From: Dysgonomonas hofstadii
Lineage (GTDB): Bacteria; Bacteroidota; Bacteroidia; Bacteroidales; Dysgonomonadaceae
DNA: 64,000 nucleotides
Reading direction: 5' to 3'
NCBI RefSeq assembly: GCF_014196915.1
Contig: NZ_JACIEP010000005.1
Location: forward strand, 124,001 to 188,000
Shown here in pieces: positions 4,879 to 18,655 of the stretch. The position numbers and the translations under genes are program-made. The notes below the pieces were generated by a model. It worked only from the letters and a program-made list of their open reading frames with translations, made no database searches and was not told the origin of the DNA. Positions within the stretch are counted from its first letter, which is position 1. Each line of letters begins with the position of its first letter.

Positions 4879-5190
4879 AGTTTATCTATAGTAATAGAGT
4901 AGTTAGTAGAAGCTCCCTCTGGCGCGGGGGAGAGAAACAGAGAGTATAAATAAAAATTGAACTTAGCGCCTTTGCAGGAAAATCTGTCAGGAGTGTCAGG
5001 TTTTTATACTTTGTCATACTGGAGCGAAGCGAAGCATCCAAAATATAGATCCTTCGTTTCTCAGGATGCCAAAATGGAAGATAAATAATTTGTCAGGAGG
5101 GTCAGGTTTTGGTCGAAAATGCTGCAAAAGTGTAACATTTTAGTAAAAAAGCTAATAGCTAACAGGTAAAAAGTGTCAGGTTTTGGTTAT
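4879..5190 (+). repeat. Dispersed repeat R1, copy A
   Basis: About 310 bp repeated directly at 15850-16380. Shared blocks include GTTTATCTATAG at the left, then GAGAAACAGAGAG, AATAAAAATTGAACTT, CTGTCAGGAGTGTCAGG, GGAGCGAAGCGAAGCATCC and GGTCGAAAATGCTGCAAAAG. Three TGTCAGG-type direct repeats lie inside (about 4986, 5092, 5174). The inner 5012-5068 part belongs to the widespread imperfect palindromes that pair GAGCGAAGCGAAG with CTTCGTTTCTCAGGAT. No gene is visible in 4804-5262 apart from this repeat. Copy A lacks both insertions found in copy B. Confidence 0.8.
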
Positions 5191-5262
5191 CGATTAGGAC
5201 GCTATAAAGTGTAAATGTCAGATAAAGAGAAATTTAAAATTGTAACTTAATAATCATGGTGT

Positions 5263-11283: not shown

Positions 11284-11313
11284 AATTGAAAATCGCCGAA
11301 GCGTAGGCGAGGT
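11284..11313 (+). repeat. 30-bp palindromic unit (diverged)
   Basis: Begins AATTGAAAATCG and ends GTAGGCGAGGT; the same subtype as the unit at 15972-16001. It lies in the 362-bp intergenic region 11187-11548, which also contains a CCTGACAAACCTGACAGATT block (11336-11356) that recurs at 48707-48726 and a more degenerate 30-bp unit at 11396-11425 (minus orientation relative to this one). No gene is seen there. Confidence 0.6.
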
Positions 11314-11502
11314 AAACTCGTTACTGTTTCGAAAAACCTGACAAACCTGACAGATTCTTACTATTTTTTCAAAGAACTCTTTTTATTAGTGTATTGTCTC
11401 GCCCACACTTCAGCGATTGTTGTTTAATCTATTAATTAATCTATTCACAGATTATGTCCTATAGATAAATTTTCCAAATATTCATCATATAAAAAAAATA
11501 TG

Positions 11503-14204: not shown

Positions 14205-14654
14205 ATGAAAGAGAAAATAAAAGAACCTGACGAACAATCGGGATATTTACTCACACAGGTAACCTTTTTGAAACAACGCATTGTTAATGCCGCATTAAAG
14301 GAACTGAATATAACATATATACAGTTTATCATTCTTGCGGGAACATTTGAACTGGGAACTGAAGGCGGGATGGTAACACAGCAGGATATCTCGACAAAGC
14401 GCAGGCTGGATAAGGCTATGGTTTCGAATGTGGTAAAAACTTTAATTGAAAAAGGACTAATGCTAAAGAATACCCATCCTGTAGATAAAAGAGCTTACAC
14501 CTTGTCGTTGACAACAGCAGGAATAGAAAAGGCCAAAAAAGGAAAAGAAATCGCTTTAAAGATTGATGAATCCTTTTTCTCGGAAATAGATAAGGAAAAA
14601 TTCCGTGAATCCCTGATGATATTATTAAAAAACGACAGTAATTCGCATGAATAA
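14205..14654 (+). CDS. MarR-family transcriptional regulator
   Basis: 149 residues from ATG 14205 (a TTG at 14187 would lie at the probable transcription start). Winged helix-turn-helix: recognition region about 66-95 (TQQDISTKRRLDKAMVSNVV) and wing around HPVDKRAYTLSLTTAG. MarR dimers bind palindromes and usually let go on binding a small phenolic or drug-like ligand. The 24-bp palindrome inside its own promoter (14158-14181) is the likely operator. Its 3' end overlaps the MFS gene by 8 bases, so regulator and transporter are co-transcribed and the transporter is probably the regulated output. Confidence 0.92.
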   Translation: MKEKIKEPDEQSGYLLTQVTFLKQRIVNAALKELNITYIQFIILAGTFELGTEGGMVTQQDISTKRRLDKAMVSNVVKTLIEKGLMLKNTHPVDKRAYTLSLTTAGIEKAKKGKEIALKIDESFFSEIDKEKFRESLMILLKNDSNSHE

Positions 14655-15828
14655 TAATAAGCGCCCCCAACTGTGGACAAAGGATTTTATCCTTGTCTTT
14701 ATTTCCAATCTACTTCTCTTTTTCTCTTTCTATATGCTTATTCCGGTATTGCCGCTCTACCTGATGGAAAATCTGGGAACAAGCGGATCGGTGGCAGGTA
14801 TAGTGCTGGCGTTATATACAATATCGGCTTTGTGCATACGCCCGTTTTCAGGCTTTATGGTAGATATGTTTAGCCGCAAACCGCTATATCTGATCTGTTA
14901 CGGGCTATTCTGCGTTATTTTTGCCGGATATGTAGTAGGCACGACCTTAGTATTATTTATCATTCTGCGCATTCTTCACGGATTGGCCTTTGGCATGAGT
15001 ACGGTTAGCGGAAGCACTGTGGCTGTCGATATCATGACTTCCGAGCGGCGTGGAGAAGGTATCGGCTATTTCGGAATGGCTGCGAATATCGCGATGGCTG
15101 TGGGGCCTGTGGCCGGACTTGCCATATATAAATATTATTCCTTTGATGCCTTGTTCCTTACTGCATTATTTTCCAGCTTTATCGGGCTGATCACTATAAT
15201 TCTGATAAAACCTATAAAGAAAGAACATGTAGTGCCAAAACAAACATTGTCTCTCGACCGGTTTATCCTTCTGAAAGCACTGCCGTGTGTCGCCTTGCTT
15301 TTCATTGCCGGATTGGGCTATGGCTCTGTTTTGAATTATGTGGGTTTATATACCGAAATGGTCGATTTTCAGAGTAGTGCAGGCTGGTTCTTTGTGATTA
15401 TTGCTATCGGGATAATCTTAGCCCGTGTCTTGTCGGCCAAAGCGCTCAACAATGGGAAAATAGTATTATTAGTTAATACAGGAAGTGTTTTTCTGCTCGT
15501 TTCATTCGGGCTGTTCGCTATATGCACAAATGCTATTATGCTATACCTGATCGCTTTTTTATTGGGGATCGGCTTCGGATATATAAATCCGGCGTTCCAG
15601 ACCATGTTGATCAATCTGGCAGACCATAACCAGCGGGGAACAGCCAACGCGACTTATTTCACTTTTTGGGATCTGGGAATCGGGATCGGAACAGCTATTG
15701 GCGGAACAATTATTGAAAAACTCAATTTCGGATGGATGTATGCTATTTGTGCGGGAGCTCTTATATTGGGTATTTTATACTTTTACGCAATCTCTGCTCC
15801 GTATTTTCAGAAGAATAAACTTCGTTGA
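14647..15828 (+). CDS. MFS transporter, probable drug or metabolite efflux
   Basis: 393 residues with about 12 hydrophobic segments, the usual MFS size. The loop 2-3 signature is recognisable as GFMVDMFSRKPLYLI (GxxxDrxGrkp type), with FGMSTVSGSTVAVDIMTSERR in the fifth-helix region. In Bacteroidota this group is often annotated as arabinose-efflux-like or multidrug efflux; substrate unknown. It overlaps the MarR gene by 8 bases and shares its operator-bearing promoter, which suggests inducible export of the compound sensed by that regulator. Downstream lies repeat R1 copy B. Confidence 0.9.
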   Translation: MNNNKRPQLWTKDFILVFISNLLLFFSFYMLIPVLPLYLMENLGTSGSVAGIVLALYTISALCIRPFSGFMVDMFSRKPLYLICYGLFCVIFAGYVVGTTLVLFIILRILHGLAFGMSTVSGSTVAVDIMTSERRGEGIGYFGMAANIAMAVGPVAGLAIYKYYSFDALFLTALFSSFIGLITIILIKPIKKEHVVPKQTLSLDRFILLKALPCVALLFIAGLGYGSVLNYVGLYTEMVDFQSSAGWFFVIIAIGIILARVLSAKALNNGKIVLLVNTGSVFLLVSFGLFAICTNAIMLYLIAFLLGIGFGYINPAFQTMLINLADHNQRGTANATYFTFWDLGIGIGTAIGGTIIEKLNFGWMYAICAGALILGILYFYAISAPYFQKNKLR

Positions 15829-15918
15829 ATCTGCATTTTTATAGGATATGTTTATCTATAGAATGAGGAGTTAAAGGAGTTAAGTAACAAGTAGAAGCCC
15901 CTTTTGGCTCCCCGTGGG

Positions 15919-16090
15919 CAGGGCTGTTAAGTTCTGAAATTTATACCCTCTTTGTCATGTTGAACGGAGTGAATTGCAAATCGCCGAAGCGAAGGCGAGG
16001 CAAACATCTCTTGTAAGATAAGAGATCCTTCGTTTCGCTCAGGATGACAGCAGAAAATAACAGAACAAAGCAGAGAACTTAACAGCCCTA
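15919..16090. mobile_element. MITE-like element with TIRs and 8-bp target duplication
   Basis: Perfect 16-bp terminal inverted repeats AGGGCTGTTAAGTTCT (15920-15935) and its complement (16074-16089). CCCGTGGG stands on both sides (15911-15918 and 16091-16098) and reads as an 8-bp target-site duplication, because R1 copy A has a single comparable GC-rich block there. Inside is a GTCATGTTGAACGGAGTGAA ... TTCGTTTCGCTCAGGATGAC inverted structure, itself interrupted by a 30-bp unit (15972-16001). No transposase frame, so non-autonomous. Confidence 0.75.
15972..16001 (+). repeat. 30-bp palindromic unit (inside the MITE)
   Basis: Begins AATTGCAAATCG and ends GAAGGCGAGGC. It splits the otherwise symmetrical inner palindrome of the 15919-16090 element. 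Confidence 0.7.
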
Positions 16091-16310
16091 CCCGTGGGGG
16101 GAGAAACAGAGAGAGATAAATAAAAATTGAACTTTGCGCCTTTGCGCGAAAATCTGTCAGGAGTGTCAGGTTTTTATACTTTGTCATGCTGGAGCGAAGC
16201 GAAGCATCCAAAATATAGATCCTTTGTTCCTCAGGACGGTAAAATGAAAGATAAATAATCTGTCAGGAGTGTCAGGTTTTGGTCGAAAATGCTGCAAAAG
16301 TGTAACATTT

Positions 16311-16340
16311 GCCTCGCCTTCGCTTCGGCGATCGTTGATT
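16311..16340 (-). repeat. 30-bp palindromic unit (filled site 3)
   Basis: Plus-strand ends GCCTCGCCTTCGCTTC and CGATCGTTGATT. R1 copy A runs straight through the matching point (around 5148) with no insert. Confidence 0.78.
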
Positions 16341-16456
16341 GTAACTTTTTTGCTAATAGTAAACGCGTCAGGTTCTAGTTAAAATATTAATCGCTATACT
16401 TGGAGTAGGGTAGTAATAACTTTTAATAATTGGCAAAGAATTAATAATAATAATAT

Positions 16457-17074
16457 ATGAACAGAAATTATTTTTTTAATGTTTTAATTATTATCATATC
16501 AGCTATGGTAATAACATCATGCAATTCGGATCAAGGTAAATCTATGGATTCAAAAACAGCGATCGACATCATTCACAAACGGACAAGCATCCGTAGTTTT
16601 CACGACAGGAAAGTGTCGAAAGAACAACTGGAAACAATCGTCAGGGCTGGTATGGCTGCACCTACAGCCATGAATAAGCAACCCTGGATGTTTATTGTAA
16701 TTGAAGATAAAGAAGTGCTTCAGGCTTTGGGAAAAGATATTCCCACATCAAAAATGGTACAACAGGCTCCCGCCGCTATTATCGTTTGCGGTGATATGAA
16801 AAAAGCAGGAGAAGGCTGGTTACAGCAATACTGGATTCAGGATTGCTCGGTTGCTTCACAAAATATTCTGCTGGCGATAACTGACCTGGGGCTGGGCGGT
16901 GTCTGGACGAGTGTATATCCGGCAGAGAACAGGATGAAAATAGTATCGGAAATCCTGCATCTACCCGAACATCTTATTCCACTGAATATAATTCCGGTCG
17001 GTTATCCTGCCGAAAATAAAAGCCCGATGGATAAGTGGAAACCTGAAAATGTGCATTGGGGTGTATTCGAATGA
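16457..17074 (+). CDS. Nitroreductase-family lipoprotein
   Basis: 205 residues. Unlike the protein at 4165 it begins with a lipoprotein signal ending VITSC (C22), so it should be exported and lipid-anchored. The mature part is a nitroreductase fold: HKRTSIRSFHDRKVSKEQL, AAPTAMNKQPWMFIVIEDK, and LGLGGVWTSVYPAENRM near the C-terminus. Family members bind FMN; a lipid-anchored form needs cofactor and electrons outside the cytoplasm, which is unusual but known for Bacteroidota annotations. The next gene starts 31 bases later, likely in the same transcript. Partner and substrate unknown. Confidence 0.87.
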   Translation: MNRNYFFNVLIIIISAMVITSCNSDQGKSMDSKTAIDIIHKRTSIRSFHDRKVSKEQLETIVRAGMAAPTAMNKQPWMFIVIEDKEVLQALGKDIPTSKMVQQAPAAIIVCGDMKKAGEGWLQQYWIQDCSVASQNILLAITDLGLGGVWTSVYPAENRMKIVSEILHLPEHLIPLNIIPVGYPAENKSPMDKWKPENVHWGVFE

Positions 17075-18203: not shown

Positions 18204-18655
18204 TCTACTGCGCACAATCGAAGATTGCTTGCCATCCTTTTTTCCTAAGCAAAAAAAGGATGCAAAAATGCTTTGGTGGCTCATCCTGCGTGCGACCCGT
18301 TACAGGCTCAGGAGCTAAATGGAAAGATTGTCCTGCGGACGCTTCCCATTTCACGCCCCTCTCGCCTGACGGGTGCCCCGCACTACGGCTTAATGCCACC
18401 GGGCGAAGCCACCTCAAGGCAGGGCAATTCCCTATCGTGCGCCAGCTTTCCGTGCATAGGTTCCTACGACGGGCACCTGTCCGGTGAAGACGGCGTGAAA
18501 CCAAATATTGTCTGAGCCGAAGGCGAGTTTATTTGGTTTAGCCGGCAAGCCGATGACAGGTCGGCGGGGAACCAGGTACTAGCCTTTTGTTTCGTTTTGG
18601 GCAATGCCAATCAACGATCGACGAAGCGAAGGCGAGTCAAAATGAAAAACAACCC
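18204..18655 (+). repeat. Dispersed repeat R2, copy 2
   Basis: Direct copy of 3612-4046, with ATGCCACCGGGCGAAGCCAC and TTCGTTTTGGGCAATGCCA conserved. It has a 30-bp unit at 18609-18638 that copy 1 lacks, and lacks the one copy 1 carries. It fills most of the 595-bp gap between the propeller lipoprotein and the DUF3861 gene. Frames of 80-103 codons inside are not conserved in copy 1 and are not called as genes. Confidence 0.8.
18609..18638 (+). repeat. 30-bp palindromic unit (filled site 2)
   Basis: Begins AATCAACGATCG and ends AAGGCGAGTC. Flanks CAATGCC and AAAATGA join directly in R2 copy 1 (4020-4032), so insertion is seen at base resolution. Confidence 0.82.

Follow-up and report, generated by a model that had tools for sequence, protein, structure and literature searches.

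A miniature transposon with ISAs1-type ends within a palindromic intergenic repeat of Dysgonomonas hofstadii

A 172-bp element interrupts copy B of the intergenic repeat R1 in Dysgonomonas hofstadii and is very probably a non-autonomous miniature inverted-repeat transposable element (MITE), moved in trans by an ISAs1 transposase into the centre of a palindrome, with the 30-bp unit that it contains most likely acquired beforehand. In the proposed mechanism, a transposase of the ISAs1 family would recognize CAGGGCTGTTAAGTTCT-type ends and act in trans on the miniature transposon, which would be inserted at the centre of an intergenic C-run/G-run palindrome with duplication of about 10 bp (8 bp in copy B). 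The target in the window would be the palindrome within R1, and the cargo would be a REP-like hairpin that, in some copies, carries a 30-bp hairpin unit in one of its arms, most likely since before insertion.

The window, i.e., the whole stretch of 64,000 nucleotides that was analysed, corresponds to G000:C5:124001-188000 in the host assembly (G000), which comprises 5.04 Mb in 44 contigs. R1 copy B lies in a gene-free gap between an MFS-like gene on the left (14647-15828) and a nitroreductase-like gene on the right (16457-17074), both named by eye. The features referred to below are as follows.

About 4880 to 5200, plus strand: R1 copy A, without the MITE and with a degraded palindrome centre.
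15850 to 15909, plus strand: R1 copy B left of the MITE, including the left-hand part of the palindrome targeted (by eye).
15911 to 15918, no strand: left target duplication CCCGTGGG, adjoining the MITE, read in the light of the family-wide flank test.
15919 to 16090, plus strand: the MITE, 172 bp including the single end bases C and A, or 170 bp from AGGG to CCCT (15920-16089).
15920 to 15935, plus strand: left terminal inverted repeat AGGGCTGTTAAGTTCT, 16 bp and perfect, common to ISAs1 elements of G012 and G024.
15953 to 16049, no strand: inner imperfect palindrome TGTCATGTTGAAC.../...CTCAGGATGACA, 67 bp plus the 30-bp unit, with stand-alone relatives in congeners.
15974 to 16003, plus strand: 30-bp unit TTGCAAATCGCCGAAGCGAAGGCGAGGCAA, identical in the host copies L001, L003, L004, and L005.
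16074 to 16089, minus strand: right terminal inverted repeat, the perfect complement of the left AGGGCTGTTAAGTTCT.
16091 to 16098, no strand: right target duplication CCCGTGGG, adjoining the MITE, read in the light of the same flank test.
16096 to 16310, plus strand: R1 copy B right of the MITE, matching copy A at 93% identity.
16181 to 16239, no strand: the GAGCGAAGCG palindrome belonging to R1 itself, outside the MITE, with the literal string at 16192-16201.
16309 to 16330, minus strand: core of another 30-bp-type unit, present in R1 copy B and absent from copy A.

An earlier note on this DNA had described R1 copy B as interrupted by a 172-bp element with 16-bp perfect ends and an 8-bp CCCGTGGG duplication, and the coordinates confirm this, CCCGTGGG occurring in the window only at the two flanks. 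The inner palindrome has its arms at 15953-15973 and 16020-16049 and is split by the 30-bp unit, as that note also had it; the unit divides the left arm, with the outer part on one side and the remainder on the other. The palindrome nested in the MITE had been called GAGCGAAGCG-type, which is right as to its kind, but the MITE holds a variant, and the literal string lies in R1 itself, in both copies (5022-5031 and 16192-16201). Further copies or relatives of the unit core were seen in the window at 16309-16330 (minus strand), 11294-11315, and 18619-18640.

The element is a MITE: it is short, has no transposase-coding capacity, possesses 16-bp perfect ends, and exists in several copies with duplications. 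The sole listed open reading frame of at least 90 amino acids over it (15927-16211, minus strand) extends into R1. The genome-wide search for end pairs that the earlier note had called for revealed 24 exact matches to a 14-base end core in G000 and three with one mismatch, against two for a reversed control pattern, a count therefore beyond chance. They resolve into 12 two-ended copies and single ends at C2:77 and C15:66122, while one mismatched match on C12 is probably due to chance. Directly repeated flanks (9-bp measure) were found in eight of the 12 copies. The hairpin is present in all 12, in agreement with the earlier view that the inner palindrome arrived with the MITE, and the 30-bp unit in four. 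Contig C2 starts inside a MITE copy (1-95), so that breaks in the host assembly may be due to repeats of this kind. The single-stranded DNA fold of 15894-16112, in which the flanking palindrome and the ends pair as one long stem, has a z of -6.07 against shuffles, which is no sign of function because inverted repeats must fold in this way. A structured RNA was also considered and dropped, as Rfam matched nothing in 15800-16460 at E 1 or better.

In two congeners, elements were identified that combine these ends with a transposase. They measure 1,329 bp in G012:C63 (L154, 897-2225) and 1,174 bp in G024:C72 (L113, 1462-2635), with both 16-bp ends exact, and both sit between C-run/G-run palindromes. 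The transposase is split over two frames in each, and both halves match NF033564 above the cut-off (E 2.6e-33 and 2.6e-32 in G024; E 1.1e-34 and 7.6e-32 in G012); the first reading frame of G024 also matches PF13808 (E 9.4e-22). Since these same-ended elements encode an ISAs1 transposase, the MITE, which has its ends in common with them, is most plausibly of ISAs1 type. The earlier note had suggested looking for a transposase with the same ends, and it exists in these congeners, but the host assembly yielded none. Of 298 relatives, 32 show an ISAs1 match at E 0.001, with none in G000, G003, or G019, all of which are rich in the MITE. The first transposase half of G012 had 0 matches in G000 at E 1e-20 and none at that threshold in 395 genomes of the phylum, a set that contained no positive control. 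In a plasmid collection, 631 records matched the first half of the transposase, all at less than 60% identity, the best listed being from Nostoc (43.8%). A transposase in the same genome is expected of an active MITE and is not needed for descent; the host assembly, 99.7% complete, yielded none. Either MITEs outlive or travel without their insertion sequence (IS), or the assemblies lack it; the source of the transposase in D. hofstadii would be lost or absent from its assembly.

The junction of the two transposase frames in G012 and G024 is a run of eight A, at the second-aspartate motif. The differences between the two species by codon position, each half being taken in its own frame, are 5, 6, and 34 in one and 14, 3, and 45 in the other; such mostly third-position differences suggest selection on both halves. 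For this reason, slippage or frameshifting at the A-run would be the likely explanation of the split, rather than decay. In G166, eight A lie at the same place, with the second half in the other of the two frames. Eight cyanobacterial relatives, picked from 20 listed and including an ISAcma12-like one from Acaryochloris, have a run of seven or eight A there as well. Among them, tandem transposase reading frames are annotated in five, only the first in two, and a single CDS in one, the ISAcma12-like relative, where it has 1,090 bases, not a multiple of three. It was also observed that the ISAs1 subgroup as sampled (L154, L113, L156, and L320-L327) has 7-8 consecutive A at a common position, where several members are split in two frames. 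A further candidate, unusual conservation of the DNA around the A-run, was dropped, as the longest stretch of identity is located elsewhere and its length is reached by 127 of 2,000 shuffles.

The target and the flanks were analysed in a sample of elements that comprised, besides the host copies, those in 60 chosen stretches of G003, G011, G015, G018, G019, G020, and G024, a part of all the elements there; genome labels were assigned from locus numbers. Excluded were ends that lay within 16 bases of the edge of a locus or had more than three mismatches, and pairs outside 60-1,500 bp. Of 94 elements, four with repeated flanks were removed, leaving 90 for the flank test; 14 of the 90 came from a pattern that demands a palindrome on one side and were kept in the shuffle test and dropped from the remaining 76, a few of which had first been found by a DNA query including four flanking bases. 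Among these 76, unselected by flank, CC-N1-5-GG occurs on both sides in 56 and on at least one side in 70, compared with 5.5% of random 14-mers (1,255/22,800). Because a palindromic target makes left and right flanks alike anyway, the flanks were re-paired within genomes in 500 shuffles. Perfect direct 9-bp flanks were found in 17 of 90 elements against 4.5 ± 2.0 after shuffling, and direct flanks with at most one mismatch in 34 of 90 against 14.4 ± 2.9, neither value being reached in any of the 500 shuffles. The direct match thus exceeds the re-paired expectation, so the target duplication is real.

Exact direct repeats of at least 8 bp flank 19 of the 90 elements; they measure 8-12 bp (10 bp in 12 of the 19), and in 13 a single base separates AGGG from the duplication at either side. 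Members of the ISAs1 family duplicate about 8-10 bp and begin with C, values that the present elements fit. Copy B, with only eight exact flanking bases, falls outside the 17 elements that are perfect over 9 bp; its match alone is modest evidence of a duplication, because the palindrome by itself yields 4.5 perfect 9-bp matches per 90 re-paired elements.

It could be argued that the CCCGTGGG flanks are instead the outer part of longer inverted ends, with no target duplication, the reading by which the earlier note would have been overturned. With the flanks counted in, the inverted repeat reaches 33 nt (82%), and perfectly inverted flanks occur in 14 of 90 elements, above the 5.1 ± 1.9 of the shuffles, none of which reached that number. 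This reading is nevertheless highly improbable, as the palindrome centre varies between copies, being GT, TTT, GGA, TT, GA, TCC, or AAAA in those of the host, and the direct left-right match stands at 17 of 90 against the 4.5 expected. Family-wide, the flanks are true target duplications that lie outside the element.

With at most one mismatch, inverted flanks number 20 against 16.2, reached by 73 of 500 shuffles, and the mean number of mismatches is 2.87 compared with 2.91 after shuffling. Over all 90 elements, the better flank match is direct in 51, inverted in 30, and tied in nine; among the host copies, L001, L004, L005, L007, L008, L010, L012, and L020 are direct and L003, L006, and L011 inverted, while L009 fits neither well. 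Template switching between short inverted repeats has been described to homogenize their arms and invert their spacers (PMC8604942). Such switching might have turned direct flanks into inverted ones, for instance, TT/TT into TT/AA, although the support for this is weak because the inverted excess is confined to perfect matches. The ends of the perfectly inverted elements (14) are not more worn than those of the perfectly direct ones (17), with no difference in end mismatches (p = 0.79). A wider reading is tentative and on balance doubtful: throughout Bacteroidota, the ISAs1 subgroup and its MITEs may home in on repeated C-run/G-run palindromes at their centres, template switching may then rewrite the double palindromes so formed and make perfect inverted flanks of direct duplications, and 30-bp units may independently enter fixed hairpin positions. 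On the Nostoc plasmid pNsp_e, an ISAs1 element (L320, 1431-2595) was seen by eye between a run of six C and a run of G, apparently in a palindrome.

The relation of the MITE to R1 was assessed from copies of the repeat. Copy A had been described as free of all layers; it has no MITE, but what it lacks is the nested palindrome only, not the palindrome type, and its degraded centre makes it an imperfect stand-in for the site before insertion. Better MITE-free copies are G000:C4:206306-206441 (L290) and G000:C11:12744-12840 (L305), which share 76% identity with copy A where they match it and in which the palindrome is uninterrupted, upholding the claim that R1 preceded the MITE. A query with copy A gave 43 matches in G000, mostly short, and four in G003 and two in G019, all short. 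No orthologous empty site was obtained via the downstream gene, whose homologues, present in seven of 24 further genomes of the genus, reach no more than 39-47% identity.

Six of the 12 host copies are borne by R1, all at the same point, and five of these have the same orientation relative to it, as would be expected if R1 and the MITE had spread jointly as a composite with no separate insertion at each site. That is improbable: the other six have no R1 module alongside, MITE-free copies of R1 exist, the duplicated centres differ, and the sixth R1-borne copy has the opposite orientation, so that at least two insertions occurred. Recombination or gene conversion among intergenic repeats could also have produced the nesting with no transposition at all. 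R1 resembles by eye a mosaic of short modules, and the presence of the unit conflicts with three columns of the copy alignment (23, 30, and 35, each showing all four combinations with it), so some exchange between copies is likely. As an account of the nesting itself, this is very improbable in view of the sharp element boundaries, the duplicated and locally variable targets, and the ends held in common with a transposase-coding element. 

For the innermost layer, the order first proposed is not supported. The earlier note had the 30-bp unit entering last, into the MITE of copy B at that very site. Eight of the 12 host copies are without it, so that a unit-free form is a possible ancestor, and the conflicts at the linked columns also permit recurrent insertion. 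Yet the unit is letter-identical and at the same position in four of the 12 copies, which lie at unrelated sites, and L004 (with the unit) and L012 (without it) show no other difference. Stand-alone hairpins without adjoining MITE ends also bear such a unit at the same position by eye (L051 in G020 and L052 in G024). Entry at that site as the final event is thus unlikely, and these three observations indicate that the unit was either present already or exchanged between copies: it was probably in the MITE when the latter entered R1 copy B, or was moved by conversion or by recurrent insertion at fixed hairpin positions. Among 55 hairpin-bearing elements of G000, G003, and G019, a unit occupies the first position in ten, comprising the four of the host and six of G019, the latter mostly longer than the 30 bp of the host unit. 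In six of the 55 (five in G019 and one in G003), the other arm has a different 30-bp unit at a second position, and two elements carry both. This second-position unit, with a GTTCGGCAGAGCGAAGCGGAGCCAA core, was noted at L115, L121, L138, L191, L223, and L233.

The family extends beyond the host. The end core, with at most one mismatch, is present in at least 15 of 25 genomes of the genus, nine of which have at least four matches each among the matches listed. The reversed control has at most two per genome among the 25 in the matches listed, and genomes with fewer than four core matches may therefore owe them to chance. A 26-base pattern of one end and the right-hand palindrome matched 23 stretches in genomes with names, most of them Dysgonomonas, others being Saprospiraceae, Phaeodactylibacter, Tannerella, and one Desulfamplus record. 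At L105, L107, L108, L112, L117, L119, and L126, which belong to other Bacteroidota, UASB270, and one Desulfamplus record, the same ends were seen beside palindromes, and where both ends are visible the interiors differ from that of the host MITE. Within the genus, a TGTCAT hairpin interior occurs in G000, G003, and G019, the sampled elements of G015, G020, and G024 are quite different, and G018 has both sorts. As interiors vary among genomes, the family is defined by its ends, with the hairpin as cargo.

Several known systems resemble this arrangement in part. The ISAs1 family is the closest, with the NF033564/PF13808 transposase on Dysgonomonas elements of identical ends and duplications of about 10 bp. 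Its cyanobacterial members have CAGGGCTG at both ends in four of the eight, at one end in three, and at neither in one. The host element differs in being gene-free, in having ends that depart from the cyanobacterial ones past CAGGGCTGTT, and in residing in a genome with no transposase found. Type I MITEs have their ends in common with an IS (PMC3542288), as the present element does, except that here the IS occurs in congeners and not in the host genome. IS that target REP palindromes are known, namely, ISPsy8, ISPa11, ISPpu9, ISPpu10, ISRm19, and ISRm22, and share the specific insertion into repeated intergenic palindromes (PMC1525189). The present case differs from them in its target, a C-run/G-run palindrome, and in the element being a MITE; a term search of the text of that paper gave 0 occurrences of ISAs1. 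The inner hairpin is like REP/BIME and REPIN sequences in being a short, repeated, intergenic imperfect palindrome that stands alone elsewhere in the genus. An origin of hairpin and unit from RAYT/Y1 transposases was rejected for want of association with Y1 loci: neither the hairpin nor the unit motif was present in the 10 loci scanned, of 11 Y1 matches in four genomes, two of the matches being in G000. In titles and abstract openings, a scope outside which ISfinder and subscription papers fall, neither this element nor any ISAs1 MITE that targets palindromes was found to be described. The mode of working is thus already known in kind from the REP-palindrome IS, and the target preference is unusually clear.

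An anonymous nested repeat is hereby given a named mechanism, with ISAs1-type ends and a palindrome as target. Each layer is itself a palindrome and usable as the next landing site, which suggests how intergenic repeats come to be stacked. Two cautions follow for the reading of such loci: where the target is a palindrome, flanks can readily match as CCC-GGG although nothing was duplicated, and an insert that lies innermost need not be the most recent. Because perfectly inverted flanks are in excess, natural sequences offer a test of template switching at hairpins, and if the reading of homing and template switching is true, these loci would be natural recorders of hairpin-driven DNA rewriting.
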